Assembly: GCF_036345995.1 (NCBI RefSeq)
Contig: NZ_CP107796.1
Coordinates: 3,410,001 to 3,474,000 of the forward strand
Length of the DNA: 64,000 bases
Origin: Streptomyces sp. NBC_00557
GTDB taxonomy: Bacteria; Actinomycetota; Actinomycetes; Streptomycetales; Streptomycetaceae
Direction of reading: 5' to 3'
The notes beneath the pieces are model-generated. The model did not search any database. It was given only the letters and a program-made list of their open reading frames with translations, and was not told the origin of the DNA. Numbering within the stretch: the first letter of the stretch is position 1; every line of letters starts with the position of its first letter. A program made the position numbers and the translations under genes. This document shows positions 2,743 through 30,696 of this stretch, one piece after another.

Positions 2743-2750
<8 letters not shown>
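822..2750 (+). CDS. korA: 2-oxoglutarate:ferredoxin oxidoreductase, alpha (gamma-alpha fused) subunit
   Basis: This is the large subunit of a two-subunit 2-oxoacid:ferredoxin oxidoreductase. With KorB it converts 2-oxoglutarate and CoA to succinyl-CoA and CO2 and reduces ferredoxin. The 642-aa length fits the gamma-alpha fusion class. The N-terminal gamma-like domain starts near residue 35 (FAGDSGDGMQLTG). The pyrimidine-binding-type alpha domain starts near residue 225 and carries YPITPASD near residue 288. The GTG start at 822 has an AAGGAGGT Shine-Dalgarno sequence about 7 bp upstream. The stop overlaps the korB start by 8 bp, implying translational coupling. Pyruvate or another 2-oxoacid as substrate cannot be excluded from sequence alone. 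Confidence 0.93.
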
Positions 2751-3804
<1,054 letters not shown>

Positions 3805-3817
3805 CGACGCCGTTCCA

Positions 3818-4222
3818 TCACGAGGCCCGGGACCGTACGTCCCGGGCCTCGTCGTATGCCCGGCGGGCGCTGAGCACGTCGTCCATGCGCCGCTCGGTCC
3901 ACCGGGCCAGCGCCTGCACCTGTTCCGCCGCCTCACGGCCGAGGCCGGTGAGCGAGTAGTCGACGCGCGGCGGGATGACGGGCTTGGCGTCCCGGTGCAC
4001 GAGACCGTCGCGCTCCAGGGTCTGGAGGGTCTGCGCGAGCATCTTCTCGCTGACGCCGCGCCCGCCGAGGCCGCTGATTGCCCGGCGCAGCTCGCTGAAC
4101 CGGTAGGGGCGGTCGAGGAGCTGGATCAGGACCAGCACCCCCCAGCGGCTGGTGACGTGCTCCAGGACGAGGCGGTGGGGGCACAGGGTCTCGGGATCGC
4201 CCGACCGATCACTTACCGACAC
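3818..4222 (-). CDS. HxlR-family winged-helix transcriptional regulator
   Basis: This is a 134-aa single-domain MarR-like winged-helix protein of the HxlR class. The family core is clear, from LCPHRLVLEHVTSRWGVLVL (Cys near residue 14) to YRFSELRRAISGLGGRGVSE and the wing segment LVHRDAKPVIPPRVDYSLT. HxlR proteins often sense quinones, aldehydes or electrophiles through a conserved N-terminal Cys and repress a divergent detoxifying reductase. The divergent QorB-like gene 91 bp away fits that arrangement exactly, resembling the qorB/ytfH pair. The start is the GTG/ATG region at 4222. The operator is probably the palindrome in the shared promoter. Confidence 0.88.
   Translation of the reverse strand: MSVSDRSGDPETLCPHRLVLEHVTSRWGVLVLIQLLDRPYRFSELRRAISGLGGRGVSEKMLAQTLQTLERDGLVHRDAKPVIPPRVDYSLTGLGREAAEQVQALARWTERRMDDVLSARRAYDEARDVRSRAS
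3821..3851. terminator. Bidirectional hairpin between korB and the HxlR gene
   Basis: A perfect 13-bp stem (CGAGGCCCGGGAC, 3821-3833, with its complement at 3839-3851) flanks a 5-nt loop. It follows the korB stop by 17 bp and also encodes the last codons of the convergent HxlR gene. It has no long T-tract, as is common for high-GC Gram-positive terminators. Confidence 0.75.
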
Positions 4223-4225
4223 GCC

Positions 4226-4250
4226 AGTACCTTACTTCAAAGTGGGTACT
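4226..4250. promoter_or_regulatory. Inverted repeat in the HxlR/qorB divergent promoter
   Basis: AGTACC (4226-4231) and GGTACT (4245-4250) are complementary arms around a 13-bp centre. Related half-sites follow (TACTTT, AAGTAAG). Its position between the two divergent starts fits the HxlR operator. Confidence 0.5.
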
Positions 4251-4313
4251 TTCCATAAGTAAGCGCACTTCCTAGGGTGAGTGGCATACCCACCGCACAA
4301 GGAGTCGTGAACC

Positions 4314-5168
4314 ATGAGCATCGTCGTCACCGGAGCCACCGGCCACCTCGGCCGCCATGTCGTGGAGCAGCTGCTGGAGAAGGTTCCGGCGGAGCAGATC
4401 ACCGCCGTCGTGCGCGACGCGGCGAAGGCCGCCGACTTCGCCGCCCGTGGTGTCAGGCTGGCCGTCGCCGACTACAACGCGCCCGAGACCTTCGACGGCC
4501 TGTTCGCCGCCGGCGACAAGGTGCTGCTGATCTCCGGCAACGAGTTCGACAAGGGCCGGGTGGGGCAGCACCAGGTCGTCATCGACGCGGCGAAGGCGGC
4601 CGGTGTGGCGCTGCTCGCGTACACCAGCGCCCCGGGCAGCCTGACCGCCACGCTCGCCGACGACCACCGGGCGACGGAGCAGGCGCTGCTCGCCTCCGGC
4701 CTGCCGTACAGCCTGCTGCGCAACGGCTGGTACCACGAGAACTACACCGAGAACCTCGCCCCGGTGCTGGAGCACGGCGCGGTCGTGCAGGCCGCCGGCG
4801 ACGGCCGGGTCTCCTCCGCCGCCCGCGCCGACTACGCCGCCGCGGCGGTCGCGGTGCTCACCGGCGAGGGCCACGAGAACACGACGTACGAGCTGGGCGG
4901 CGACGAGGCGTGGAGCTTCGCCGAGTACGCGGCCGAGCTGAGCCGGCAGACCGGCAGGGAGATCGCGTACACCCCGGTCTCGGTCGAGGCCCTGACCGGC
5001 ATCCTGACCGGCGTCGGGGTGCCCGGGCCGCTCGCGGCGGTCCTGGCCGGCGTGGACGCCTCGATCGAGAAGGGCGAGCTGGTGATCACCTCCGGCGACC
5101 TGTCGCGGCTGATCGGACGCCCCACCACCCCGCTGACGGAGGCGGTCACCGCCGCCCTCAAGGGCTGA
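4314..5168 (+). CDS. NmrA/QorB-like NAD(P)H:quinone oxidoreductase (atypical SDR)
   Basis: This is a cytosolic 284-aa NAD(P)-binding protein of the atypical short-chain dehydrogenase class. The N-terminal Rossmann motif VTGATGHLGRHVVEQL begins at residue 4. The later pattern (DYNAPETFDGLF, YTSAPGS, LRNGWYHENY, GRVSSAARADYAAAAVAVL) matches QorB/YtfG-type quinone reductases. The expected reaction is NADPH-dependent reduction of small quinones. The ATG at 4314 follows an AAGGAG Shine-Dalgarno sequence. It is transcribed away from the HxlR gene, which probably represses it. A nested hairpin lies downstream. The real substrate is unknown. Confidence 0.85.
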   Translation: MSIVVTGATGHLGRHVVEQLLEKVPAEQITAVVRDAAKAADFAARGVRLAVADYNAPETFDGLFAAGDKVLLISGNEFDKGRVGQHQVVIDAAKAAGVALLAYTSAPGSLTATLADDHRATEQALLASGLPYSLLRNGWYHENYTENLAPVLEHGAVVQAAGDGRVSSAARADYAAAAVAVLTGEGHENTTYELGGDEAWSFAEYAAELSRQTGREIAYTPVSVEALTGILTGVGVPGPLAAVLAGVDASIEKGELVITSGDLSRLIGRPTTPLTEAVTAALKG

Positions 5169-5204
5169 TCACCGGCCCCTGCCCGGCTGTCGCCCTTCGA
5201 CCAT

Positions 5205-5246
5205 CCCGCTGTCATGACCGTATACCGATACGCGCATGACAGCGGG
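5205..5246. terminator. Nested perfect hairpin between the qorB-like gene and rarD
   Basis: The 12-bp arms CCCGCTGTCATG (5205-5216) and CATGACAGCGGG (5235-5246) are perfectly complementary. Inside the 18-nt loop, CGTAT (5219-5223) and ATACG (5228-5232) can pair again. It is placed 36 bp after the reductase stop, so a terminator is likely. A protein-binding palindrome for rarD is the alternative. Confidence 0.5.
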
Positions 5247-5300
5247 GGGTCCTCGGCGCTACCTTCGTTCTCGCGTGTCTGACTGCGAGAGGAGGGGCCG

Positions 5301-6356
5301 GTGGCCGAGAAGTCCAAGGGTGAGCACCGGATAGGCCTGCTGAACGGTTTCGCCGCCTACGGCATGTGGGGCCTGGTGCCCCTGTTCTGGCCCCTGCTGA
5401 AGCCCGCCGGGGCGATGGAGATCCTCGCCCACCGCATGGTGTGGTCCCTGCTCGTCGTCGCCGTCGCCCTGGTGTTCGCCCGGCGCTGGGCCTGGGCGGG
5501 GCAGCTGCTGCGCCAGCCGCGCCGGCTCGCGCTGGTCACCGTGGCGGCCGCCGTCATCACCGTGAACTGGGGCGTCTACATCTGGGCCGTGAACGCCGGC
5601 CATGTGGTCGAGGCCTCCCTCGGGTACTTCATCAATCCGCTGGTGACCATCGCGATGGGCGTGCTGCTGCTGAAGGAGCGGCTGCGGCCCGTGCAGTGGG
5701 CGGCGGTCGCCACCGGCCTCGCCGCCGTCGTGGTCCTGACCATCGGCTACGGCCGTCCGCCGTGGATCTCCCTGGTGCTCGCCTGCTCCTTCGCCACCTA
5801 CGGCCTGGTGAAGAAGAAGGTCGACCTCGGCGGCGTCGAGTCGCTGGCCGCCGAGACCGCGATCCAGTTCCTGCCCGCGCTCGGCTATCTGCTGTGGCTC
5901 GGCGCACACGGCAGGGCGAGCTTCGTGAACGAGGGCGCCGGGCACGCCGCCCTGCTCGCCTCCACCGGTCTCGTCACCGCGGTACCGCTGGTGTGCTTCG
6001 GCGCGGCGGCGATCCGCGTCCCGCTGTCCACGCTGGGCCTGCTGCAGTACCTCGCGCCCGTCTTCCAGTTCCTGCTCGGCATCCTCTACTTCCACGAGGC
6101 CATGCCGCCCGAGCGCTGGGCCGGGTTCGCGCTGGTCTGGCTGGCGCTGATGCTCCTCACGGGCGACGCGCTGCGCTCCGCCCGCCGGGGCGCACGTGCG
6201 CTCGCCAGGGCGACCGCGGCCGCGGGCAACGGCCTGCCGGCCGGCACGGCCGGGACCGCCGTACGCACCGCGGAGAGCCTGATCTCCGGGTCCGACCCGG
6301 ACACGGAGAAGGTGACCCCCGGACCCGATCCGGAGGCGGAGGCCGCGACGCCGTAG
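5301..6356 (+). CDS. rarD: RarD/EamA-family drug/metabolite transporter
   Basis: This is an integral membrane permease of the DMT superfamily. The 351-aa sequence contains about ten hydrophobic helices in two EamA halves. The N-terminus GFAAYGMWGLVPLFWPLLK and the later NWGVYIWAVNAGHVVEASLGY are the RarD signature segments. The C-terminal 60 residues are hydrophilic and probably cytosolic. GTG at 5301 is preceded by GAGAGGAGGG, a strong Shine-Dalgarno sequence. Substrates of RarD proteins are not established; the name comes from chloramphenicol-sensitivity annotation in other bacteria. Confidence 0.88.
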   Translation: MAEKSKGEHRIGLLNGFAAYGMWGLVPLFWPLLKPAGAMEILAHRMVWSLLVVAVALVFARRWAWAGQLLRQPRRLALVTVAAAVITVNWGVYIWAVNAGHVVEASLGYFINPLVTIAMGVLLLKERLRPVQWAAVATGLAAVVVLTIGYGRPPWISLVLACSFATYGLVKKKVDLGGVESLAAETAIQFLPALGYLLWLGAHGRASFVNEGAGHAALLASTGLVTAVPLVCFGAAAIRVPLSTLGLLQYLAPVFQFLLGILYFHEAMPPERWAGFALVWLALMLLTGDALRSARRGARALARATAAAGNGLPAGTAGTAVRTAESLISGSDPDTEKVTPGPDPEAEAATP

Positions 6357-6408
6357 CCGACCCGGAGCCTGCGGAACCGCCTCCTCCAGCGGGTGGGCGC
6401 GGCTATAA

Positions 6409-6909
6409 GTGGTCACCATGACCACTCCGACACCCGGCGCCACGCCCACTCCCACGCCCGCGCCGCTGCACTGGAAGCTCGTCGTCGACGCGGCCGACCC
6501 GCACGCCCAGGCCGACTTCTGGGCCGCCGCACTGCACTACACGGCCGAGGACAACAGCGCCCTGGTCGAGCGGCTGCTGTCCCTCGGCGCGCTGCCCGTC
6601 GAGGCCACGGTCGAGTACCGCGGCCGGTCCGCCTTCCGCGATCTGATCGCCGTACGGCATCCCGAGGACCCGTACGACCCGGAGACCGGCACGGGGCTCG
6701 GGCGGCGGCTGCTGTTCCAGCGCGTGCCGGAGGCGAAGACCGTCAAGAACCGGCTCCACCTCGACGTGCACGTCGGCCCGGAGCGGCGCGCGGCGGAGGC
6801 GGCGCGGCTGGAGGCGCTGGGCGCGCGCGTGGTGCGCGAGGTGAACGAGCCCGCCGGGCAGTGGCTGCTGATGGCCGACCCGGAGGGCAACGAATTCTGC
6901 CTGCAGTAG
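6409..6909 (+). CDS. VOC-superfamily (glyoxalase/bleomycin-resistance-like) protein
   Basis: This is a small cytosolic protein of 163-166 aa with one vicinal-oxygen-chelate fold. It opens with LHWKLVVDAADPHAQADFWA and closes with WLLMADPEGNEFCLQ, the usual ends of a Glyoxalase_6-type domain. HLDVHVGPERR is the second-half metal-side segment. Two starts are possible, GTG 6409 and ATG 6418, and neither has a clear Shine-Dalgarno sequence. The substrate is unknown; enzymatic, binding or resistance roles are all seen in this superfamily. Confidence 0.8.
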   Translation: MVTMTTPTPGATPTPTPAPLHWKLVVDAADPHAQADFWAAALHYTAEDNSALVERLLSLGALPVEATVEYRGRSAFRDLIAVRHPEDPYDPETGTGLGRRLLFQRVPEAKTVKNRLHLDVHVGPERRAAEAARLEALGARVVREVNEPAGQWLLMADPEGNEFCLQ

Positions 6910-6950
6910 GAATCCCGACCCGCGGCAGGCGGGACTGTGCGGGACGCCGG

Positions 6951-17541: not shown

Positions 17542-18807
17542 CTACTTCGTGGAAGTGCCGCTGCCGCGGCGGTTGGTCCGCCACAGCTGATACAGGTGCT
17601 TCGCGCCCGGGCGCACGAAGCGGGCGAGCATCGTGAGGAACGGCAGCGGGTCGTCACCCGCGAACCAGGCCAGCTCCGTCCCGCTCGCCCTCGCCGGCGC
17701 GTGCGGCGTCGTATAGCCGCTGCGGCGGTAGGCGAGGAGGGCGGGCAGGTCGATGTTCTCCACGATGTAGCGGTGGCCGGCCCGCTGTTCCCCCTCCGGA
17801 ACGGGGCGGCCGGTCAGGTTCAGATGCATCGCGCGTACGACGTCCACGCCCGACTCGTTCTCGAACAGCCGGAACTGGGCGCCCATGCGCGGGTTGAAGT
17901 CGAGGAGCTTGTACTGTCCGTCGCGCCGGTCGAAGCGCAGGTCGAGGTCGATGATGCCGCTGTAGCCGATCTGTTTGATGAAACGCGCGGCGAGGTCGGC
18001 GAGTTCCGGATTGTCGACGACGTACGCGTTCGCCGTCATGCCGGCGTGCGGCGGCCACGAGCGCACCTTGACGCCGGTGAACAGCGCGAGCGGGCTGGAG
18101 TCCTGGTCGAAGCAGGCGTGCACGATCCAGTCCTCGGCCTCCTCGCGCGGCAGGTACTCCTGGAGGATCACGCCGGGTCTGTCGCCCCAGTCACGCGCGA
18201 GGGAGAGCAGCCCCGCGCGCGTGGCGATCTTCGTGGTGCCGTTGACGGCGGGCTTGCTGCGCCGGACGAACGCCTCCCGGTTCTTGGCCACCACCGGGAA
18301 GCGGGCCGTGTCGGCGAAGGCGACGATGTCCTCGTACGACTCCGGGAACGCCGACGCGGGACTGGCCAGGCCGTGCTCCACGCACAGTTCGTGCAGACCC
18401 TGCTTGCTGGCGAGCCGGCGCGGCAGCCCGGGATCGACGCGCGGGAACAGAAAGGAACCGGCCAGCTCGTCCTGGTGCTCGGCGATCAGTACGGCGGCCT
18501 CCTCGTCCGTGGGGACGAGGACGGCGGGGCGGCCGATACGGCGGCCGACGCGCAGCAGCCCCTCGACCAGGTGTCCGGGGTCCTCCGCGCCGGTCGTCGG
18601 CCACACGAAGGCCCTCTTCAGATAGCGCGAGGAGGCCGCGGGCGTGTACGCGTCCTCCGTGATGGCGTACATGGGCACACCCAGCCGGCCCAGGCTGCGG
18701 ATGGCGCCGACGCCGCCGTGGTGCAGCGGATAGTCGCCGAACTTGACGATCAGTCCCGGCACGTCCCGGTCCGCCTCGAATGGCACACCGACGGTGTCTC
18801 CGGCCAC
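17542..18807 (-). CDS. ATP-grasp carboxylate-amine ligase
   Basis: This is a cytosolic ATP-grasp enzyme that should activate a carboxylate as acyl phosphate and couple it to an amine. The N-terminal Rossmann-like part is LIVKFGDYPLHHGGVGAIRS. The ATP-grasp core includes FPVVAKNREAFVRRS, VILQEYLPREEAEDWI and the Mg-binding IDLDLRFDRRDGQYKLLDFN with NPRMGAQFRL. Three in-frame GTG codons compete (18846, 18819, 18807); 18807 has GGGGGGA close upstream and removes an odd Gly/His-rich tail. The substrate is not inferable. The flavoprotein gene follows in the same direction. Confidence 0.82.
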   Translation of the reverse strand: MAGDTVGVPFEADRDVPGLIVKFGDYPLHHGGVGAIRSLGRLGVPMYAITEDAYTPAASSRYLKRAFVWPTTGAEDPGHLVEGLLRVGRRIGRPAVLVPTDEEAAVLIAEHQDELAGSFLFPRVDPGLPRRLASKQGLHELCVEHGLASPASAFPESYEDIVAFADTARFPVVAKNREAFVRRSKPAVNGTTKIATRAGLLSLARDWGDRPGVILQEYLPREEAEDWIVHACFDQDSSPLALFTGVKVRSWPPHAGMTANAYVVDNPELADLAARFIKQIGYSGIIDLDLRFDRRDGQYKLLDFNPRMGAQFRLFENESGVDVVRAMHLNLTGRPVPEGEQRAGHRYIVENIDLPALLAYRRSGYTTPHAPARASGTELAWFAGDDPLPFLTMLARFVRPGAKHLYQLWRTNRRGSGTSTK

Positions 18808-19103
18808 GGGTCCCCCCACGTGTCCCCCCAAATGGAACGGACCCACCCCGTCCGTGTCCCCAAAGGACGCTAAGCCGGAATTGCCGCCTCCGACAAGGCC
18901 TATTCGGACATTGCGAACTCTTTAGGCGGGGTGCGGGCAACCTTTCGAAGGCCCCTCGACACATACCTTTCGGGCACTTCCCGGACACTCCTCGGAGCGC
19001 GGCATGGGGCTCTGCCCAAGACACGCATCACAGCCGTAACGTGTGGCCCGACCACATGGAACGATCGCCATGCACGGCCCGGATGAGAGTGAGGCAGCAC
19101 CCC

Positions 19104-20321
19104 ATGCCCCCCTTCGACGTCCCCGAGGGCGACCCCTTCGGCCCGCACAACCTTCCCTATGGCGTGTTCTCGCCCTCCGGCAGCACGGAGCGCAGGGTCG
19201 GTGTCCGGCTCGGGGACCAGGTCCTCGACGCGGGCGCCGCAGCCGCCGCCCTGGGCTCGCCGCACCACTCGCTGCTGGCGCGGCCCACCCTCAACGCACT
19301 GCTGGCCGCCGGCCGCCCGGCCTGGTCCGAGGTACGGCGCGCGCTCACGGACTGGGTCACCGACCCCGCGCACCGCGAGACCGTCGAGCCGCTGTTCCAC
19401 CCCCTGTCCGAGGTGACCCTGCACCTGCCTTTCGAGGTGGCGGACTACGTCGACTTCTACGCCTCGGAGAACCACGCCCGCAACGTCGGCCGGATCTTCC
19501 GCCCCGACGCCGAGGACTCCCTCACCCCCAACTGGAAGCACCTGCCGATCGGTTACCACGGCCGCTCCGGCACGGTCGTCGTGTCGGGCACGGACGTCGT
19601 ACGGCCGTCCGGGCAGCGCAAGGCCCCCACCGACCCGGCACCCGTCTTCGGCCCGTCGGTCCGGCTGGACATCGAGGCCGAGGTCGGCTTCGTCGTGGGC
19701 GTGCCCTCCGCCCTGGGCAGCCCGGTGCCACTGGACCGCTTCCGCGACCACGTCTTCGGGCTGTGCCTGCTCAACGACTGGTCCGCACGCGACATCCAGG
19801 CCTGGGAGTACGTCCCCCTCGGTCCCTTCCTCGGCAAGTCCTTCGCGACCTCCGTGTCGGCGTGGATCACCCCGCTGGAAGCGCTGGAGCACGCGCGCGT
19901 GGCGCCTCCGCAGCGCACGCACCCGCTGCTGCCCTACTTGGACGACTCGGCGCCCGGCATCGAACCCGGCGGCTACGACCTGCGGATCTCCATCGCCGTC
20001 AACGGGCATGTGGTCTCCGAGCCGCCGTTCTCGACCATGTACTGGACCGCCGCCCAGCAACTCGCCCACATGACCGTGAACGGCGCCTCGCTGCGCACCG
20101 GCGACCTGTACGGCTCGGGCACGGTGAGCGGCCCCGAGGAGCGCCAGCGCGGCTCGCTGCTGGAGCTGACCTGGAACGGCCGGGACCCCCTCGACCTCCC
20201 GGACGGCAAACGCGCCTTCCTTGAGGACGGCGACGTGGTGACCCTCTCGGCCTGGGCTCCTGGCGCCAACGGACTGCGTGTCGGCCTGGGTGAGGTCAGC
20301 GGGCGGATCGTGGCGGGCTGA
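19104..20321 (+). CDS. fahA: Fumarylacetoacetase
   Basis: This enzyme performs the last step of tyrosine/homogentisate catabolism, splitting fumarylacetoacetate into fumarate and acetoacetate. At 405 aa it has the full two-domain eukaryote-like length. The N-terminal small domain starts at PFGPHNLPYGVFS. The metal site region contains DYVDFYASENHARNVG and the long FAH core LCLLNDWSARDIQAWEYVPL with GKSFATSVSAW. ATG at 19104 follows GAGTGAGG. No other homogentisate genes are adjacent. A GC-rich hairpin follows the gene. Confidence 0.93.
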   Translation: MPPFDVPEGDPFGPHNLPYGVFSPSGSTERRVGVRLGDQVLDAGAAAAALGSPHHSLLARPTLNALLAAGRPAWSEVRRALTDWVTDPAHRETVEPLFHPLSEVTLHLPFEVADYVDFYASENHARNVGRIFRPDAEDSLTPNWKHLPIGYHGRSGTVVVSGTDVVRPSGQRKAPTDPAPVFGPSVRLDIEAEVGFVVGVPSALGSPVPLDRFRDHVFGLCLLNDWSARDIQAWEYVPLGPFLGKSFATSVSAWITPLEALEHARVAPPQRTHPLLPYLDDSAPGIEPGGYDLRISIAVNGHVVSEPPFSTMYWTAAQQLAHMTVNGASLRTGDLYGSGTVSGPEERQRGSLLELTWNGRDPLDLPDGKRAFLEDGDVVTLSAWAPGANGLRVGLGEVSGRIVAG

Positions 20322-20620: not shown

Positions 20621-21559
20621 ATGACCGTCTGCCTGCTCCTGCTGAGCGTCGTCGCCCTCACGGCCGCCCTGCCGGTGCCGCGCGCGCTGACCCGCGCCGC
20701 ATGGCCCGAGCGGGAACCGGTGGTCGCGTTGTGGGTGTGGCAGTGCCTGGTCGCCACCGTCCTGCTGTGCTGCCTGGCCGCACTGGTCCTGGGCGCGGCG
20801 GCCGTCTTCCACACCGTCCGCGACCGGGTGTTCGCCCCCGCGCCGCCCTCCGTCACCGCCGCCTACGACCTCTCCTCCACGCCGGTGTGGGCCACCGCCC
20901 TCACCATGCTGCTGGCGTGCGGGGCAGCCTGGACGACGGCGATGCTGGCCCGGGAACTGGTGGAGGCCCGCCGCAGCCGCGGCCAGGCCCGTGCGCAGCT
21001 CCGGGAGCGCGCCCCCGACCTGCCGGCCGGGCTTCCGGCGGCGCGCGGCCCGATGCTGGTGCTGGAGGACGAGTACCCAGACGCCTGGTGGATGCCGGGG
21101 CACCCGCCGCAGCTGGTCGTGACGACCGGAGCGCTGCAACGCCTCACCGATCACCAGCTGGATGCCGTCCTCACCCATGAACGCGGGCACGCGCGTGCCC
21201 ATCACGACTGGCTGCTGCACCTGTCCACCGCGCTCGCCACGGGCTTCCCGCGCGTGCCGCTGTTCGCGCACTTCTGCGACCAGACGCACCGCCTGGTCGA
21301 GCTGGCCGCCGACGACACCGCGTCGCGGCGCTGCGGACACCTCACCACGGCTCTCGCCCTGATCGAGCTGAACCAGCACCGGGGCGTGCTGTCCTGCGCC
21401 TCCAGCCGGCGCCTCCTCGGCGAACGCGTGGACCGCCTGCTGGAGCCGCCGCCCCGGCTGCTCCGCCGGCACCGGGCCCTGACGACGACGGTGGCCGCAC
21501 TGGTGCCCCTGCTGCCCCTGCTGATCACGTTCGCCCCGGGCCTGACGGCACTGTCCTGA
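20621..21559 (+). CDS. M56-family (BlaR1/MecR1-like) membrane metallopeptidase
   Basis: This is a 312-aa integral membrane protease. Three N-terminal hydrophobic segments (from VCLLLLSVVALTAALP, LVATVLLCCLAALVLGAA, TALTMLLACGAAWTTAML) precede a zinc-peptidase domain. That domain has HERGHARAHHDW (HExxH type, near residue 190) and the downstream ELAADDTA Glu ligand. A final hydrophobic helix (VAALVPLLPLLITFA) closes the protein. There is no sensor penicillin-binding domain and no BlaI-type repressor next door, unlike classical pairs. The role is probably envelope-related proteolysis; the substrate is unknown. Confidence 0.85.
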   Translation: MTVCLLLLSVVALTAALPVPRALTRAAWPEREPVVALWVWQCLVATVLLCCLAALVLGAAAVFHTVRDRVFAPAPPSVTAAYDLSSTPVWATALTMLLACGAAWTTAMLARELVEARRSRGQARAQLRERAPDLPAGLPAARGPMLVLEDEYPDAWWMPGHPPQLVVTTGALQRLTDHQLDAVLTHERGHARAHHDWLLHLSTALATGFPRVPLFAHFCDQTHRLVELAADDTASRRCGHLTTALALIELNQHRGVLSCASSRRLLGERVDRLLEPPPRLLRRHRALTTTVAALVPLLPLLITFAPGLTALS

Positions 21560-21680
21560 CCGGCCCGCCGGGTGGCGCATCTGCCCGGCGGAACAGGCAG
21601 ACGCGCAGCTCAGTGCCGTATCCCACGGCCCCTCAGGCGGCGCAACACAGCGGCAACACCACTTTCCCTACCGCGTCGGT

Positions 21681-22481
21681 ATGGTTCCAGCCATGCCAGC
21701 CACCGACCGTCCCCGCGACCATGCCGGTCAGGGCGCCGCGACCACCGTCGCCGCCCACCGCACGCGTCGCCGGCTGCGTGCGGACCGGGCCCGGCAACTC
21801 GCCGATCTGCTGCGCCACCAGATCCTCACCGGCGCCTTCCACGGCGGCCCCCTCCCCCACGAATCGACCCTCGCCGCCGACTACCGCGCCTCCCGCAACA
21901 CCGTCCGCCAATCCCTGGACCTGCTGCGGGCCGAGAGCCTCGTGGAACGGCTGCCCGGCGTCGGCACCGTGGTCGTCGCCCGCAAATACCCGCACGGGCT
22001 CGACCGTCTGATGGGCCTCGCGGAAACCCTCCGCGAACACGGCCGCGTCACCAACGAGGTCCGCACCATGGGCCCCGCGCCCGCACCCGCCCCGGTGGCC
22101 GACCGCCTCCGCGTCCCCGCCGGCGCCGACGTCCTCTACATCGAACGCCTGCGCCGCCTGAACGGCCTGCCCCTCTCCCTCGACCTCACCTACATCCCGC
22201 TCGACCTCGGCACCGCCCTGCTCGGCGCAGACCTGGAGAACACCGATGTCTTCCGCCTCCTGGAAGCCATCACCGGCCGGCCCCTCGGCCACGCCGAGAT
22301 CACCCTGGAGGCGGTGACGGCGGACGCCCACTCCGCCGCCGTGCTCGAGGCCCCGCGCGGCGCCGCCGTACTCATGCTGGAACGCCTCACCCACCTCGCC
22401 GACGGCCGCCCCGTCGACCTGGAGTTCATCCGCTTCCGCGGCGACCGCATCACGATGAGCGGCCTGCTCCACCGGTCGTAG
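21681..22481 (+). CDS. GntR/HutC-family transcriptional regulator with UTRA domain
   Basis: This is a 266-aa repressor-type regulator. The N-terminal winged helix spans about residues 30-95 (LADLLRHQILTGAFHGGPLP, STLAADYRASRNTVRQSLDL, LVERLPGVGTVVV). A UTRA ligand domain follows (VLYIERLRRLNGLPLSLDLT to MTLERLTHLADGRPVDLEF-like end). Starts at 21681 and 21693 (ATG) are both possible, with no clear Shine-Dalgarno sequence. It directly precedes the ferredoxin/ABC/flavoprotein operon by 47 bp in the same direction. It is therefore the probable local regulator, and its UTRA ligand is likely the imported or processed compound. Confidence 0.88.
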   Translation: MVPAMPATDRPRDHAGQGAATTVAAHRTRRRLRADRARQLADLLRHQILTGAFHGGPLPHESTLAADYRASRNTVRQSLDLLRAESLVERLPGVGTVVVARKYPHGLDRLMGLAETLREHGRVTNEVRTMGPAPAPAPVADRLRVPAGADVLYIERLRRLNGLPLSLDLTYIPLDLGTALLGADLENTDVFRLLEAITGRPLGHAEITLEAVTADAHSAAVLEAPRGAAVLMLERLTHLADGRPVDLEFIRFRGDRITMSGLLHRS

Positions 22482-22528
22482 CGCACCCGCCGCACTCACC
22501 CCTGCCTGCACGTTTCCTGGAGACAGCC

Positions 22529-22756
22529 ATGCCCTTGGCGCCCCAGCGGGCCGACGTGCCCGTGACCATCGACGAGTCGAAGTGCATCGACGGCTGCACC
22601 CTCTGCGTGGACATGTGCCCGCTGGACTCCCTCGCCATCGACGAGACCAGCGGCAAGGCGTACATGCACGTCGACGAGTGCTGGTACTGCGGCCCGTGCG
22701 CGGCCCGCTGCCCCACCGGAGCCGTCACCGTCAACATGCCCTACCTGCTCCGGTGA
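22529..22756 (+). CDS. Dicluster 4Fe-4S ferredoxin, AprB-like
   Basis: This is a 75-aa electron carrier with two cluster motifs. The first is C-x3-C-x2-C-x3-CP in KCIDGCTLCVDMCP and the second is C-x2-C-x2-C-x3-CP in CWYCGPCAARCP. The Trp after the first Cys of cluster two (ECWYCGPC) and the short tail TGAVTVNMPYLLR resemble the ferredoxin half of adenylylsulfate reductase beta subunits. ATG 22529 has CTGGAGA upstream. It heads the operon and is the obvious redox partner of the flavoprotein encoded five genes in. It ends 14 bp before the binding-protein gene. Confidence 0.88.
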   Translation: MPLAPQRADVPVTIDESKCIDGCTLCVDMCPLDSLAIDETSGKAYMHVDECWYCGPCAARCPTGAVTVNMPYLLR

Positions 22757-22770
22757 GAGGTACAACCACC

Positions 22771-24114
22771 ATGAAACGAACCGCCGTCGCCGGATCCGCC
22801 GTCGCCCTTCTGCTTCCCCTGTCCGCCTGCGGCGGCAGCGCGGAGGCGGGCAGCGGCTCCACGGTCACCGTGACCGTCGGCTACCAGTCCAAGACCATCA
22901 ACACCGTCACCGCAGGCACCCTGCTGCGGTCCCTCGGCTCCTTCGAGAAGCAGCTCAACTCCCTGCACGACGGGCACACCTACAAGGTCGACTGGCAGGA
23001 CTACGCCACCGGCGCCCCGATCACCGCCCAGATGACCGCCGGAAAGATCGACATCGGTTCGATGGGTGACTTCCCGCTGCTGCTCAACGCGGCCCGCGGA
23101 AAGCAGCTCGGACGCCCCACCCGCCTGGTGTCGGTGACCGGCTACAACCTGCGCGGCGGTCTCAACACGGTCGTCACCGCACCCGACTCCAAGCTCACCA
23201 CCCTGCAGGACCTGAAGGGCAAGAAGGTCTCCACCAGCGTCGGATCCGCCGCCGACGGCACCCTCGTACGGGCCCTGCAGCGCGCCGGCATCGACCCGGA
23301 CAAGGGCATCTCCAAACTCAACCAGCAGCCGGCCGTGGGCGCCTCGGCGCTCTCCTCGGGCGGCGTGGACGCCCTGTCGCAGTTCGTGGCATGGCCGGGC
23401 CTGCTCGCCTACCAGGGCAAGGCGAAGGCCCTGTACGACGGCGCCGAGCTGAACCTGCCCACCTTCCACGGCGTCACCGCCCGCGAGGACTTCGCCCGGC
23501 GGCATCCGGCGGTTCTGGGGGCCTTCCTGAAGGCCCAGGCGGAGGCGACGGACTATCTCAGCGCCCATCCCGTGACCGCCGCCGAGAAGGTCGCCAAGGC
23601 CACCGGCCTGCCCGCCGAGGTCGTCTACCTCTACAACGGCGCTCACGGCATCGCCACCTTCGACCCGGCCGTCAAACCGCAGCTCGTCTCCGCGCTGAAG
23701 CAGGACGTGTCCGTGCTGAAGGCCGCCAAGCTGACCGGCGACGTCGACGTGGACTCCTTCGTCGACGACCGTTACGTCAAGAAGGCCCTCGGCGCGTCCT
23801 ACGCCCGGCGGCTAGCGGCCGGACCCGCCCCGGCCGCCGGCGAGGTATGGCCCAAGGGCAGTGAGAAGACCCTCTCCTTCAAGTCGCCCAACGAACTGCT
23901 GGCCTACGTGGCCGCCCACCAGGGCGGCATCCACGCCGCCTACGTACCGGACGCCACCACCGGCACCCTGTGGTTCGCCGACAAGGCGGTGTGGGTGGCC
24001 GACGGTGACCGGCTGCTGCCGTTCGTCGCCCCGTCAACGGCTCACGCGTACGTCACCGCCCACGGCGGCGCCCACACGGTGTCGTACCGGGAGGCCCTGG
24101 AGCGTGCCTCATGA
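22771..24114 (+). CDS. SsuA/TauA-like ABC substrate-binding lipoprotein with NosL-like C-terminal extension
   Basis: This is an exported solute-binding lipoprotein. The signal peptide ends in the lipobox LSAC with Cys at residue 20. Residues about 30-345 form the NMT1/SsuA-type binding fold (TVTVGYQSKTINTVTAGTLL, ITAQMTAGKIDIGSMGDFPL, LKGKKVSTSVGSAADGTLV). At 447 aa it is about 100 residues longer than SsuA. The extra part (from about residue 360) reads AAYVPDATTGTLWFADKAVW and later LLPFVAPSTAHAYVTAHGG. That resembles the NosL/metal-chaperone fold; this is my reading and was not tested. Its stop overlaps the permease start (ATGA). Confidence 0.85.
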   Translation: MKRTAVAGSAVALLLPLSACGGSAEAGSGSTVTVTVGYQSKTINTVTAGTLLRSLGSFEKQLNSLHDGHTYKVDWQDYATGAPITAQMTAGKIDIGSMGDFPLLLNAARGKQLGRPTRLVSVTGYNLRGGLNTVVTAPDSKLTTLQDLKGKKVSTSVGSAADGTLVRALQRAGIDPDKGISKLNQQPAVGASALSSGGVDALSQFVAWPGLLAYQGKAKALYDGAELNLPTFHGVTAREDFARRHPAVLGAFLKAQAEATDYLSAHPVTAAEKVAKATGLPAEVVYLYNGAHGIATFDPAVKPQLVSALKQDVSVLKAAKLTGDVDVDSFVDDRYVKKALGASYARRLAAGPAPAAGEVWPKGSEKTLSFKSPNELLAYVAAHQGGIHAAYVPDATTGTLWFADKAVWVADGDRLLPFVAPSTAHAYVTAHGGAHTVSYREALERAS

Positions 24115-25031
24115 CCCGGCATCCCCTGGCGCGGTATGCGCTCCGCACGGCCTCCCTCGCCGCTCTGCTCGGGCTGTGGCAGGTGCTGACCAGCCTGAAC
24201 GTCGACCTGTGGCTGCGTTTCTCGCAGTTCCCGACGGTCGCCGACGTGGCCCGCGCCTTCGCCGGCCGGCTCTCCGGCGGCGACTACTGGACCGATCTCA
24301 CCGACAGCCTCACCCGCATCCTCACCGGTTTCGCGCTGGCCGCCGTCCTCGGCGTGGCCACCGGCGTGCTGGTGGCCCGCTCGCGCCTGGCCGAGGACCT
24401 GCTCGGTCCGGTCCTGGAGGTGATCCGCCCGATCCCGGCGATCGCCCTCGTCCCGGTCGCGATCCTGCTGTTCCCCTCCAACGAGCAGGGCATCGTCTTC
24501 ATCACCTGCACCGCCGCCTTCTTCCCCGTCCTGGTCTCCACCCGGCACGCGGTCCGCGCGCTGCCGCCTGTCTGGGAGGAAGCGGTGCGCACCATGGGCG
24601 GCGGCCGGCTGCGGATCCTCGGTTCGGTCGTGCTGCCAGGGGCGCTGCCCGGCATCTTCGGCGGGCTGTCGGTCGGCATCGGCGTGTCGTGGATCTGCGT
24701 GATCTCCGCCGAGATGATCTCCGGCCAGTACGGGGTCGGCTACCGCACCTGGCAGGACTACACGGTGGTGAACTACCCGGGCGTCTTCGTCGGCATGGTC
24801 ACCATCGGCATCCTCGGCTGGGTCACCTCCACGGCCGTGGAACTCATCGGACGGCGCCTGACCCACTGGCTGCCCCGCGCCTCGTACATCCCCGTCGGCC
24901 GCGCCCGCGCGCCCCGGCCCGTCACAGCCCCCGTCCCCACCGATCGCGAGCCCGATCCCGAGCACCAGGCCCAGCGCGAGCAGCAGGGCGAGAAGGACAC
25001 CGAGGAGGCCCGTGATGAGCACCTCGTCTGA
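24111..25031 (+). CDS. ABC transporter permease, SsuC/TauC-like
   Basis: This is the membrane subunit of the importer, 306 aa with about six hydrophobic helices. The BPD_transp_1 EAA loop is EEAVRTMGGGRLRILGSVVL followed by PGALPGIFGG. N-terminal helix: AALLGLWQVLTSLNVDLWL. The last 45 residues are unusually hydrophilic (Pro-, Glu- and Gln-rich) and overlap the ATPase gene by 17 bp, so the tail may be partly a by-product of the overlap. The family normally imports sulfonates, nitrate, thiamine precursors or similar anions. No operon gene reveals the substrate. Confidence 0.9.
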   Translation: MTRHPLARYALRTASLAALLGLWQVLTSLNVDLWLRFSQFPTVADVARAFAGRLSGGDYWTDLTDSLTRILTGFALAAVLGVATGVLVARSRLAEDLLGPVLEVIRPIPAIALVPVAILLFPSNEQGIVFITCTAAFFPVLVSTRHAVRALPPVWEEAVRTMGGGRLRILGSVVLPGALPGIFGGLSVGIGVSWICVISAEMISGQYGVGYRTWQDYTVVNYPGVFVGMVTIGILGWVTSTAVELIGRRLTHWLPRASYIPVGRARAPRPVTAPVPTDREPDPEHQAQREQQGEKDTEEARDEHLV

Positions 25032-25806
25032 GACCGTGACCGCTCCCGTCGCGCCGGTTTCCGGGGACGCCGTGCGAGGCACCCGGCTCACCTTCCGGGC
25101 CGCCACGCTCGGCCGCCCGGGCGCGCCGGTGCTGTACGACGTCGGCCTGGACGTCTCCCCCGGTGAGATCCTCACCGTCGTCGGCCCTTCCGGCTGCGGC
25201 AAGTCCACGCTGCTGCGCACGCTCGCCGGGCTGCTGTCTCCGCTGGGCGGCACGGTGGAGGCGGACGGCGTCCCCTTGGCGGGGGCGTCGGCGGACCGGG
25301 CGCTGGTCTTCCAGGAGGACGCGCTGCTGCCGTGGCGCACCTTGCGCGGGAACGTCGAACTGCCGCTCGCCATCAGCGGCGTGCCGCGCGCGGAACGGCG
25401 TTCGCGCGCCGAGTCGTGGCTCGGCCGGGTCGGACTCAGCCTGCAGGCGGGGCAGTTGCCGCACCGGGTGTCCGGCGGGCAGCGCCAGCGCGCCCAGTTG
25501 GCCCGCGCGTTGGCGGACAGCCCGCGGGCCCTCCTGATGGACGAGCCCTTCGGCGCCCTGGACGCCCAGACCCGTTCGGGCATGCAGGACCTGCTGGTCG
25601 AGGTGTTGCGCGGCACCGGTGCGACCGTCGTCTTCGTCACGCACGACGTGGACGAGGCCCTCTTCCTCGGCGATCGTGTGGCCCTGCTCGGTTCCGGCCG
25701 GGTGGCCGCCGTACGGGACGTTCCCGGGCCGCGCGACCGCGGCGCCGTCGACGCCCCGGCCCGCGTGGCCCTGCGCCGCGACATCCTTTCCTCGCTCGGC
25801 TCCTGA
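25015..25806 (+). CDS. ABC transporter ATP-binding protein, SsuB/TauB-like
   Basis: This is the 263-aa ATPase of the importer. Walker A is VVGPSGCGKSTLLR, the Q-loop region is VFQEDALLPWRTLRGNVELP, the signature is VSGGQRQRAQLARAL, Walker B is LLMDEPFGALDAQTR, and the H-loop is VFVTHDVDEALFLGDRV. The Q-loop sequence with LLPW is typical of nitrate/sulfonate/taurine ATPases. ATG 25015 is preferred over GTG 25012 because of the GGAGG spacing. The flavoprotein gene starts 11 bp after its stop, completing the operon. Confidence 0.92.
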   Translation: MSTSSETVTAPVAPVSGDAVRGTRLTFRAATLGRPGAPVLYDVGLDVSPGEILTVVGPSGCGKSTLLRTLAGLLSPLGGTVEADGVPLAGASADRALVFQEDALLPWRTLRGNVELPLAISGVPRAERRSRAESWLGRVGLSLQAGQLPHRVSGGQRQRAQLARALADSPRALLMDEPFGALDAQTRSGMQDLLVEVLRGTGATVVFVTHDVDEALFLGDRVALLGSGRVAAVRDVPGPRDRGAVDAPARVALRRDILSSLGS

Positions 25807-25817
25807 AAGGCACCCCG

Positions 25818-28583
25818 GTGACCACCCCCGCGTCCACTTCCCTGGAGATTCCCGCCGTCACCGACGCCGAGGAGCTGAGCTGTGACGTCCTCGTCGTCGG
25901 CGGCGGCACCGCCGGCACCATGGCCGCGCTGACCGCCGCCGAGCGCGGCGCGAGGGTCCTGCTGCTGGAGAAGGCCCACGTCCGCCACTCCGGTGCGCTC
26001 GCCATGGGCATGGACGGCGTCAACAACGCGGTCGTTCCCGGCCGCGCCGAACCCGACGACTACGTCGCCGAGATCACCCGCGCCAACGACGGCATCGTCG
26101 ACCAGTCCACGGTCCGGCAGACCGCGACCCGCGGGTTCGCGATGGTCCAGCGGCTGGAGTCGTACGGGATCAAGTTCGAGAAGGACGAGCACGGAGAGTA
26201 CGCGGTGCGCCAGGTGCATCGCTCCGGCTCGTACGTACTGCCGATGCCAGAGGGCAAGGATGTCAAAAAGGTCCTGTACCGGCAGCTGCGGCGGCGCGAG
26301 ATGCGGGAACGGATCCGGATCGAGAACCGGGTGATGCCGGTGCGGGTCCTGACCGCCGGCGGGCGGGCCGTGGGCGTCGCCGGCTTCCACACGCGCACCG
26401 GCGCCTTCGTCACCGTCCGCGCGGGCGCCGTGATCCTCGCGACCGGCGCCTGCGGCCGGCTCGGCCTGCCCGCCTCCGGCTACCTCTACGGCACCTACGA
26501 GAACCCCACCAACGCCGGTGACGGGTACGCGATGGCCTACCACGCAGGCGCCGAGCTGACCGGCATCGAGTGCTTCCAGATCAACCCGCTGATCAAGGAC
26601 TACAACGGCCCGGCCTGCGCCTACGTCGCCAACCCTTTCGGCGGCTACCAGGTCAACCGGCACGGTGAGCGTTTCGTGGACTCCGACTACTGGTCGGGGC
26701 AGATGATGGCCGAGTTCGCCGCCGAGGTCGCCAGCGACCGCGGCCCGGTCTACCTCAAGCTCAGCCACCTTCCCGAGGAGTCGATCTCCGCGCTGGAGTC
26801 GATCCTGCATTCCACCGAGCGGCCCACTCGCGGCACGTTCCACGCCGGCCGCGGGCACGACTACCGTACCCACGACGTCGAGATGCACATCTCCGAGATC
26901 GGCCTGTGCGGCGGCCACTCGGCCTCCGGTGTCCGTGTCGACGACCACGCCCGTACGACCGTGCCCCGTCTGTACGCCGCCGGCGACCTCGCCTGCGTCC
27001 CGCACAACTACATGATCGGCGCTTTCGTCTTCGGCGACCTCGCGGGCGCGGACGCCGCTCAGTACACCGCGTACGAGGGGGAGCTTCCCGCCGACCAGGT
27101 GGCCGAGGCGCACGAGCTGATCTACCGCCCGCTGCGCAACCCGGACGGCCCGCCGCAGCCCCAGGTCGAGTACAAGTTGCGCCGCTTCGTGAACGACTAC
27201 GTGGCACCGCCGAAGTCCGGCGCCCGGCTCTCGCTCGCCCTGGAGGCCTTCGAGCGGATGCGCGCCGACATCGCGGCCATGGGCGCCCGCACCCCGCACG
27301 AGCTGATGCGCTGCGCCGAGGTGACGTTCATCCGGGACTGCGCCGAGATGGCCGCCCGTGCCTCTCTCGCCCGCACCGAGTCCCGCTGGGGCCTCTACCA
27401 CGACCGTCTCGACCATCCCGGCCGGGACGACGTGTCCTGGTTCCACCATCTCGATCTGCACAAGTCCCCCTCTGGTGCGATGGAGTTCACGGCTCGTCCC
27501 GTGGCTCCGTATCTGGTTCCGGTCGAGGAGTTCACGCCGGTCGGCGGTCCTTCCCGGCGGCTGGGCGAGGTCCGTGCCGAGGACGTGGCCACGGCCGGGC
27601 CGCGTGAGGCGGCACCGGTCGCCGGCGGACCGGTGTCCGTGCGCGCCGCCGCTGCGGCCGGCCGGGCCGGTACGCCGGGCACCGCCTCGCCCCGGCTCCT
27701 GGAACTGCTGGAGCTGGCCGAGGCGGAGCCCGAACTCGCCTTGCTGGAGCCGTACTTGGGCGACGCCGATCCTGCCGTCCGCCGTACGGCGGTCTCGGTC
27801 CTCACCGAGACCGTGCCGCCGGGCACCGCGCAGGCCCTGGCGGGTGCCCTCCTCGACCCCGATGCCGAGGTCCGTGCGACCGCCGCGGCCGTGCTGCGGG
27901 AGCTGGTCGAGACCCTGCCGCCGGAGCCCGCGCTGGGCGCCGCCCTGACCGGTGCCCTCGCCGCGGCCGACCCCGTGGTCCGGGCTGCCGCCCTTGATGT
28001 GCTGCGCGCGCTGCGGCTCGGTGGGGCCGGGGTGTTCGCGGCGGCGCTGGACGACCCCGACGTCACCGTCCGCACCGAGGCCGTACGGGCGCTCGTCTCG
28101 GTCGATGCGGTCGGGCTCCTCGCGCGTGCCGCGGACGATCCCGCCCGGGAGGTCCGGGTCGCGGTGGCCAAGGCCCTGGCCGCCGTCGGCACCGAGTCCC
28201 TGGCCTCTGCGGACCGTGATCTGCCGGTGGCCGCCCTGGGCCGGCTCACCGTGGACGGTGATCCGCTGGTGCGCGGTGCCGCGTTCGCCGCGCTGGCCGG
28301 TACCGGCTGCCCGGTGCCGCTCGCCGAGCGTGCCGTGGCCGCGCTGTCCGACCCGGCGTGGCAGGTCCGCGCGGGCGCCGCCACCGCCTTGTCGGTCGCC
28401 TCCGCCGAGACCGCGGTCCCCGCCCTCGCCAAGGCGCTGGCCGACTCGAACGCCGATGTCCGCAAGGCGGCGGTGCTGGCTCTGACCCGGCACCGTGCAG
28501 CCGAGGAGGCGCGTGCGGCGCTCGCCACGGCCACGGCCGACTCGGACGCGGACGTCAGGGCTTACGCGGCACGGGGCGTGTGA
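25818..28583 (+). CDS. AprA/FrdA-superfamily flavoprotein fused to HEAT repeats
   Basis: This 921-aa fusion has two halves. Residues about 20-560 form an FAD flavoprotein of the fumarate reductase/adenylylsulfate reductase superfamily. FAD motifs are DVLVVGGGTAGTMAALTAAE, ILATGACGRLG and LYAAGDLACVPHNYMIGAFV. The helical C-terminal capping region follows (LRRFVNDYVAPPKSG, FIRDCAEMAARASL). From about residue 630 to the end there are about nine HEAT-like repeats with D-x-VR cores (DADPAVRRTA, DPDAEVRATA, DSNADVRKAA, DSDADVRAYA). HEAT domains usually mediate protein contacts. The AprB-like ferredoxin and the importer share the operon. GTG 25818 has GAAAGG upstream. Reaction unknown; 5'-phosphosulfate chemistry is not implied. 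Confidence 0.85.
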   Translation: MTTPASTSLEIPAVTDAEELSCDVLVVGGGTAGTMAALTAAERGARVLLLEKAHVRHSGALAMGMDGVNNAVVPGRAEPDDYVAEITRANDGIVDQSTVRQTATRGFAMVQRLESYGIKFEKDEHGEYAVRQVHRSGSYVLPMPEGKDVKKVLYRQLRRREMRERIRIENRVMPVRVLTAGGRAVGVAGFHTRTGAFVTVRAGAVILATGACGRLGLPASGYLYGTYENPTNAGDGYAMAYHAGAELTGIECFQINPLIKDYNGPACAYVANPFGGYQVNRHGERFVDSDYWSGQMMAEFAAEVASDRGPVYLKLSHLPEESISALESILHSTERPTRGTFHAGRGHDYRTHDVEMHISEIGLCGGHSASGVRVDDHARTTVPRLYAAGDLACVPHNYMIGAFVFGDLAGADAAQYTAYEGELPADQVAEAHELIYRPLRNPDGPPQPQVEYKLRRFVNDYVAPPKSGARLSLALEAFERMRADIAAMGARTPHELMRCAEVTFIRDCAEMAARASLARTESRWGLYHDRLDHPGRDDVSWFHHLDLHKSPSGAMEFTARPVAPYLVPVEEFTPVGGPSRRLGEVRAEDVATAGPREAAPVAGGPVSVRAAAAAGRAGTPGTASPRLLELLELAEAEPELALLEPYLGDADPAVRRTAVSVLTETVPPGTAQALAGALLDPDAEVRATAAAVLRELVETLPPEPALGAALTGALAAADPVVRAAALDVLRALRLGGAGVFAAALDDPDVTVRTEAVRALVSVDAVGLLARAADDPAREVRVAVAKALAAVGTESLASADRDLPVAALGRLTVDGDPLVRGAAFAALAGTGCPVPLAERAVAALSDPAWQVRAGAATALSVASAETAVPALAKALADSNADVRKAAVLALTRHRAAEEARAALATATADSDADVRAYAARGV

Positions 28584-28613: not shown

Positions 28614-30605
<1,992 letters not shown>

Positions 30606-30687
30606 CGTCCTGTCCCCCGCCGGTCCCCCGTGTGTCGTATCTCGACCGCTGCCTCCACCATAGGGGCCCGGACCGACAGCCCCGGAG

Positions 30688-30696
30688 TTATCCACA
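30688..30696 (+). promoter_or_regulatory. DnaA-box sequence (TTATCCACA) upstream of recQ
   Basis: A perfect 9-mer DnaA-box sequence lies 83 bp before the recQ start. A TTGTCCACA, the Streptomyces-preferred form, occurs at 32390-32398 inside nuoN. Single boxes may titrate or respond to DnaA, or be chance. Confidence 0.3.

Follow-up and report, generated by a model that had tools for sequence, protein, structure and literature searches.

Closest described systems

The described systems closest to the operon analysed here are the 3'-phosphoadenosine 5'-phosphosulfate (PAPS) reductase of the methanogen Methanothermococcus thermolithotrophicus (MtPAPSR, PDB 8a8o), the dissimilatory adenosine 5'-phosphosulfate (APS) reductase AprBA (1jnr) and the importers of the SsuABC/TauABC type. 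According to the passages of PMC10322725 that deal with it, MtPAPSR keeps the catalytic residues of APS reductases, its specificity lies chiefly in the loop 104–123, and electrons are proposed to reach the flavin adenine dinucleotide (FAD) through Trp42 of its small subunit. We have analysed a stretch of 64,000 nucleotides of Streptomyces sp. NBC_00557 (contig NZ_CP107796.1, positions 3,410,001 to 3,474,000; the window in what follows), where six genes at 21681–28583 code for a GntR/HutC-type regulator, a small ferredoxin, the receptor, permease and ATPase of an ATP-binding cassette (ABC) importer, and a flavoprotein with HEAT repeats. The operon is a real, tightly conserved and widespread importer-reductase system of AprBA-like build. 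We found no description of it or of its family in the literature searched (subscription papers and preprints lay outside its reach), and the available passages of PMC13352529, PMC8557817, PMC7661421, PMC2996968 and PMC8305402 do not mention it.

The window locus resembles MtPAPSR in pairing an FAD-binding alpha subunit of the fumarate-reductase family with a small subunit that has two [4Fe-4S] motifs and the electron-transfer Trp, but its flavoprotein lacks a substrate-site Arg of the R265 type, carries the cysteines C252, C267 and C364 together with HEAT repeats, and comes with an importer of its own; neither sat nor cysC adjoins it. With the dissimilatory AprBA the family shares the fold, the subunit plan and the positions of N74 and H398, and differs from it in having Leu in place of R265 and Tyr in place of W234. 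As for SsuABC and TauABC, the receptor, the single permease and the ATPase are of the same families, but the window receptor belongs to a lineage of its own with a NosL-like extension, and the operon contains no monooxygenase or dioxygenase gene.

Conservation and distribution of the operon

All six genes lie on the plus strand with gaps of 47, 14, −4, −20 and 11 bp, i.e., with two overlaps. A first-pass annotation of the window had proposed a compact operon of this kind at this place, and the coordinates, the gaps and the Pfam and NCBIfam domains agree with it. No membrane anchor gene is present in the operon, nor sat or cysC in the cluster. The co-conservation of the six genes, for which the same annotation had suggested a search, was checked in the best 80 of 514 relatives, a sample biased to close kin in which all record titles name actinomycete genera (Streptomyces, Nonomuraea, Actinomadura, Amycolatopsis, Mycobacterium and Nocardia among them). 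For 76 loci the sequence upstream of the flavoprotein gene was 5.5 kb or longer (L039, L067, L084 and L092 were excluded as too short); the set was complete in 75 of them, order and strand were kept in all of these 75, and the span was at most 5.5 kb in 74. The exceptions were L076, without a GntR match, and L090, with an insert. In this last locus (Antrihabitans; 2131–6914) a second SsuA-type importer, an asparaginase-type gene and an M20 deacylase-type gene lie between the ferredoxin and receptor genes.

The flavoprotein was present in 8 of 296 genomes at the level of the phylum and in 46 of 394 at that of the class; in the order to which G819 belongs the figure was 41 of 397. Within Streptomyces it was found in 64 of 199 genomes in one search and in 137 of 392 in another, and the 9.0-Mb genome of the window strain has one copy above the model cut-off. 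A tblastn search of plasmid records detected it in Proteobacteria and Cyanobacteria as well. This search gave 56 records, 23 of which were fetched, and 21 loci remained after an actinobacterial one with all six genes (L093) and an APS reductase-type one with cysC and cysD (L107) had been set aside. All 21 contain a flavoprotein without HEAT repeats, a ferredoxin and a separate HEAT gene, and 16 of them have the cognate importer genes (receptor, permease and ATPase) as well. Importer and enzyme thus travel together across three phyla, which bears out the earlier claim that they form one system. The regulators of the plasmid loci differ (GntR, Crp/Fnr or LysR), and Fe-S assembly genes are recurrent, Mrp/NBP35 in the cyanobacteria and DUF971 in many Proteobacteria.

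An extended actinobacterial set, drawn from the matches of the genome searches, comprises eight loci where the flavoprotein has no fused HEAT part (L135 with L137, L168–L171 and L176–L178). By tblastn and open reading frames, ferredoxin, HEAT, receptor, permease and ATPase genes are present in all eight, and the flavoproteins of the fused and unfused actinobacterial types are about 77–78% identical. Judged by these arrangements, the HEAT part belongs to the system as a constant subunit or scaffold, which is joined to the flavoprotein in the window and has a gene of its own in other lineages. A single Streptomyces genome (G483) holds both the fused six-gene version and the unfused long one (the L136/L135 pair), and short-frame matches in G311 and G1316 may be further unfused copies or merely cut copies.

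Relationships and residues of the flavoprotein

The flavoprotein gene (25818–28583, plus strand) consists of a catalytic part with an AprA-like FAD domain (25818–27542; Pfam FAD_binding_2 and Succ_DH_flav_C) and a HEAT-repeat part (27741–28583; Pfam HEAT_2 9.4e-25, best stretch from residue 642). The best PDB match is 8a8o, the alpha subunit of the methanogen PAPS reductase (1.2e-53), followed by AprA (2.1e-27) and then by SdhA types. Two NCBIfam models are matched above their cut-offs, NF010374 (PRK13800; 1639.7 bits, cut-off 1196) and NF006131 (PRK08275; 862.9 bits), and by score the protein is a member of both; they carry only the generic name fumarate reductase/succinate dehydrogenase flavoprotein subunit, with the function unstated. 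The aprA model TIGR02061 gives 118.1 bits against a cut-off of 641.75, and the cut-offs of the sdhA and frdA models are also far above the score of the window protein. In an alignment of 20 rows, 15 family proteins from Actinobacteria, Proteobacteria and Cyanobacteria were 56–83% identical to that of the window and five APS reductase-type alpha subunits 25–32%. The tree placed 13 family rows in one clade (100/99) beside eight APS reductase-type rows (100/100), and two long-branched SdhA-type rows from the window genome apart from the family clade. By PDB match, alignment and tree the nearest relatives of known reaction are the APS/PAPS reductases, to whose alpha subunits the family is sister. 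A tree had been suggested by the first-pass annotation, and it agrees with the expectation that the flavoprotein falls outside the families of known reaction, in a clade of its own; nor are the genes scattered in relatives.

Residue conservation was counted over 134 family places, not de-duplicated, with AprA numbering counted on the printed alignment; the roles of R265, W234, N74 and H398 in AprA are taken as commonly described. The R265 position is Leu (L258) in 134 of 134 places, against Arg in all five APS reductase-type rows, and the W234 position is Tyr in all 134. The K267 position is kept, as are the equivalents of N74 (N69, 133/133) and H398 (H367, 134/134, placed by the GGH block). 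Four cysteines, C252, C267, C364 and C508, are invariant across the family places. The first three correspond to Met, Gly and Val in the five APS reductase-type rows; they neighbour positions that presumably line the substrate pocket in AprA, and are expected to lie close to the FAD. Where MtPAPSR has the loop 104–123, the family has a block of its own ending in YVLPMP(E/N)G. The position of the catalytic Arg of SdhA, which we take to be R286, is Asn in the window (alignment to 1nek) and Asn, Gly or Ser in family rows.

An identity as APS/PAPS reductase was rejected because of the change from R265 to Leu, the low aprA score and the replaced loop, and an identity as fumarate reductase because of the separate clade, the Asn at the catalytic-Arg position and the low sdhA and frdA scores. 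On these residues and scores the flavoprotein is AprBA-like in build and not an APS/PAPS reductase.

Ferredoxin and importer

The AprB-like ferredoxin (22529–22756, plus strand; 75 amino acids; Pfam Fer4_7 4.5e-11) contains the motifs C-x3-5-C-x2-C-x3-CP and CW(Y/F)CxPCxxxCP, i.e., the two [4Fe-4S] motifs and the electron-transfer Trp that characterise AprB and the beta subunit of PAPS reductase. Its score with the aprB model TIGR02060 is 37.1 bits, below the cut-off of 135.65. All 12 ferredoxins in the alignment, the APS reductase-type L107 included, have the Trp of CW(Y/F)C. Together with the cluster motifs, the kept Trp supports an AprBA-like electron path from the ferredoxin clusters to the FAD.

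The receptor (22771–24114, plus strand) is an SsuA-family substrate-binding lipoprotein. Its best NCBIfam model is TIGR01728 (SsuA), at 143.1 bits with a cut-off of 163.5, and the same model is the best one, also under the cut-off, for the receptors of L094 (122 bits) and L102 (113 bits). The best PDB match is SsuA 2x26 (3.2e-18). Receptors can be aligned over their full length across phyla and are 31–36% identical to that of the window. At the C-terminus (about residues 355–447, ca. 23800–24111 of the window) there is a putative NosL-like domain (2.8e-4), also found in operon receptors of other phyla. With the NosL model (PF05573, gathering score 24) the C-terminal fragment of the window receptor scored 21.7 bits, that of Methylocystis (L099) 28.1 and five others 13.3–21.7, and L093 gave none; at E 0.11 or better the domain was detected in seven of the eight operon-type receptors tested. 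The window stretch has neither Cys nor Met, so that copper binding of the NosL type is not suggested. The permease (24111–25031; Pfam BPD_transp_1 2e-19) and the ATPase (25012–25806, with an alternative ATG at 25015; Pfam ABC_tran 4.4e-29) follow on the same strand. The NCBIfam models closest to the ATPase are of the TauB, NtrCD and SsuB types, with every score under the cut-off.

In three cyanobacterial loci the LysR regulator, encoded on the minus strand, carries a C-terminal copy of the receptor domain (L095, 6559–8574; L097, 6301–8337; L124, 6574–8574). In phmmer comparisons these domains scored 146–192 bits with five operon receptors, 115–127 with that of the window and 23–47 with three generic SsuA proteins. 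Being nearest to the operon receptors, the copy is probably a cytosolic sensor of the ligand of the operon in these loci.

Genes next to the cluster in relatives

We searched by tblastn for ten marker families (YeiH, TauE, TSUP, FdxA, KorA, KorB, FNR, FprA-like, Mrp and DUF971), and none of them was found in five 50-kb control stretches of the same plasmids. In the extended actinobacterial loci FdxA and Mrp are each present in seven of the eight, and KorA with KorB in five, KorA being above the OAFO_sf cut-off (641.8 vs. 482.75). One locus, L169, has an NAD(P)/FAD oxidoreductase with only weak GltD-type matches in NCBIfam, which we take to be FprA-like and probably an NAD(P)H:ferredoxin reductase. 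FdxA and FNR are found inside the cluster in Methylobacterium (L106) and Variovorax (L109), and FdxA in Acidithiobacillus (L100). The occurrence of differing ferredoxin-reducing enzymes at one place points to a reductase.

The second group of neighbours is related to sulfur. YeiH and LysR genes adjoin five of the eight extended loci (L135, L169, L176, L177 and L178). For the LysR proteins of L135 and L169 the best NCBIfam model is YeiE (NF040889; 155 and 148 bits, cut-off 480), and YeiH (TIGR00698) is the only transporter model for their exporter-type neighbours (125 and 123 bits, cut-off 232.6); the cyanobacterial YeiH of L095 reaches 219 bits. In Salmonella, as stated in passages of PMC12880088, YeiE senses sulfite and YeiH confers sulfite resistance. 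The genes at the extended loci are related to this pair, but their scores are under the curated cut-offs, and the pair is absent beside the window operon. Among the plasmid loci TauE/SafE, TSUP or YeiH were found in six of 21 (L095, L097, L098, L103, L124 and L128, with two pairs of close kin), and sulfite-export genes adjoin the cluster in Actinobacteria, Cyanobacteria, Burkholderiales and Acinetobacter. When organosulfur genes are included (second SsuA systems, SfnB-like, luciferase-type, 3-mercaptopropionate dioxygenase and metX), 11 of 21 plasmid loci have such a neighbour, a count on the 0.2-Mb scale made with the loci in view. Downstream of the cluster of a Paraburkholderia (L125, 15529–19572) there are genes for a luciferase-type enzyme, a 3-mercaptopropionate dioxygenase and a rhodanese. 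Further repeated neighbours are amidohydrolase and GNAT genes (L090, L096, L099, L102 and L106), which may indicate an acylated or amino substrate.

Proposed reaction and alternative explanations

What is directly observed is which genes are present, how well they are conserved, how their sequences are related and what lies beside them in relatives. On this basis we propose that an imported organosulfur anion is reduced with low-potential ferredoxin electrons and sulfite is released, a reading to which we give about an even chance. The compound carried in by the SsuA-type lipoprotein, the permease and the ATPase would be a small organosulfur anion, a sulfonate being the most likely one. In the cytosol, electrons from reduced ferredoxin would reach the FAD by way of both clusters of the small subunit, as the build of AprBA and PAPS reductase suggests; the substrate would be reduced at the flavoprotein and the sulfite freed for assimilation. 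The GntR protein would control the operon, probably in response to the substrate. To our knowledge, known aerobic routes of sulfonate desulfonation use oxygenases. An oxygen-independent assimilation of sulfonates in aerobes, by ferredoxin-driven reductive desulfonation to sulfite with the family cysteines in place of the APS-reductase Arg, is a tentative idea that we regard with some doubt. In the same tentative picture, the ferredoxin of the extended operons would be charged by KorAB, by FNR or by another reductase of this sort.

The first-pass annotation had the imported compound either oxidised or reduced. The coupling of import and redox enzyme is kept, and the direction can be narrowed, since the genes beside the relatives speak for reduction rather than oxidation. 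Its argument that sulfonate use is unlikely with no oxygenase, sat or cys gene nearby is not supported, because relatives adjoin sulfite-export and organosulfur genes and the genome has two SsuD-like monooxygenases elsewhere (G000:C1:7197158–7198219 and 7498205–7499260; 474 and 467 bits, cut-off 518). Given these, the operon would supplement ordinary sulfonate use and not replace it. There is also one weak sulfite-reductase-type match elsewhere in the genome (138 bits, cut-off 731.5).

Several observations weigh against organosulfur reduction. The ten markers are absent from the 80 own-type loci, the window included (1.74 Mb, within the fetched flanks, not scanned for luciferase-type, SfnB-like and other organosulfur enzymes), so that the window locus itself shows no direct sign of sulfur or of an electron donor and its function rests on orthology. 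Four of the extended loci (L135, L176, L177 and L178) are a close Streptomyces group with flavoproteins 94–100% identical, which leaves about five independent lineages among the eight, and L171 has none of FdxA, KorAB, FprA-like or Mrp. Just three of the 21 plasmid loci have FdxA and just two FNR, and the cognate importer is lacking in five (L096, L100, L101, L129, and L127 with a weak match only). The YeiE, YeiH and SsuA matches of the actinobacterial loci are all under curated cut-offs, and the organosulfur pair hpsN/hpsO appeared in one of the five control stretches. Two further points count at the same time for a substrate without sulfur, such as an oxyanion of nitrogen, phosphorus, selenium or arsenic or some other organic anion, the sulfur neighbours then reflecting shared starvation islands: a sulfur-related neighbour is missing from 10 of the 21 plasmid loci, and the runner-up LysR model for the YeiE-like regulators is selenium-linked. 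Receptors of the SsuA/NrtA/TauA type bind varied anions, and amidase, M20, asparaginase and GNAT neighbours are recurrent. We nevertheless consider a sulfur-free substrate rather unlikely, given the sulfite-export genes beside the cluster in four groups of bacteria and in none of the five control stretches; the M20, GNAT and luciferase-type neighbours would, we presume, fit organosulfur salvage equally well.

The direction of the reaction could also be the opposite one, with the imported compound oxidised and the electrons passed through ferredoxin to FNR or a similar acceptor. FNR is in principle bidirectional. PMC10322725 describes dissimilatory AprBA as reversible, but for MtPAPSR, the closest characterised relative, it reports no measurable reverse reaction. 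KorAB, which yields reduced ferredoxin from 2-oxoacids, stands in the same gene string in five of the eight extended loci, and L169 has another type of ferredoxin-reducing enzyme in its stead, so that such a dehydrogenase seems to us quite improbable. A divergent APS or PAPS reductase of assimilatory sulfate reduction would agree with the closest solved relative, a PAPS reductase, and with the similar two-subunit build, but it would require Leu at the R265 position and a family-specific block in the region of the specificity loop, and would leave the matched receptor and permease without a role in a cluster that lacks sat and cysC; we regard it as very improbable. An ordinary paralogue of fumarate reductase or succinate dehydrogenase is what the names in NCBIfam and GenBank records imply, and is scarcely credible for a protein of a clade distinct from the SdhA-type rows of its own genome, without the catalytic Arg, and accompanied by one dicluster ferredoxin in place of an SdhB-type subunit, in an operon with no membrane anchor gene.

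Upstream region and flanking genes

The regulator gene occupies 21681–22481 on the plus strand (Pfam UTRA 4.5e-35, GntR 7.7e-15), and its translation may start at the ATG at 21695, in which case the transcript could be leaderless. The sequence TATGGT at 21680–21685 (plus strand) is a candidate −10 element, and a comparable layout of TATGGT and ATG is found upstream of gntR in many Streptomyces loci. At 21639–21658 (plus strand) there is a conserved motif, GGCGCAAYA-N5-GCAACA, with two GCAACAC-like direct repeats 11 bp apart, that we consider a candidate activator site. Its single match without mismatches in the genome is the one upstream of gntR. With up to two mismatches the genome gave 14 matches, against 11 for the backwards control, and no regulon was found through this motif. 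A looser expression, composed with the sequences in view, matches 55 of the 80 own-type loci. Like the NosL-like domain of the receptor and the invariant cysteines of the flavoprotein, this motif goes beyond what the first-pass annotation had noticed. Rfam returned just two matches, both under the gathering score and taken as chance. By translation, the flanking genes are presumably a fumarylacetoacetase-like one (18780–20321), an M56-type peptidase-like one (20621–21559) and a RecQ-type helicase-like one (28614–30695).

Biological meaning

In spite of its wide spread, the flavoprotein family has in databases only the name of a fumarate reductase/succinate dehydrogenase subunit, and if our proposal is true the annotation of this locus is wrong in many genomes. 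Candidate electron donors and a product sensor can be read from the extended operons, so that the question is open to direct test. Were organosulfur reduction confirmed, it would mean that common aerobic soil and plant-associated bacteria release sulfur from organosulfur compounds by means of a strong reductant.

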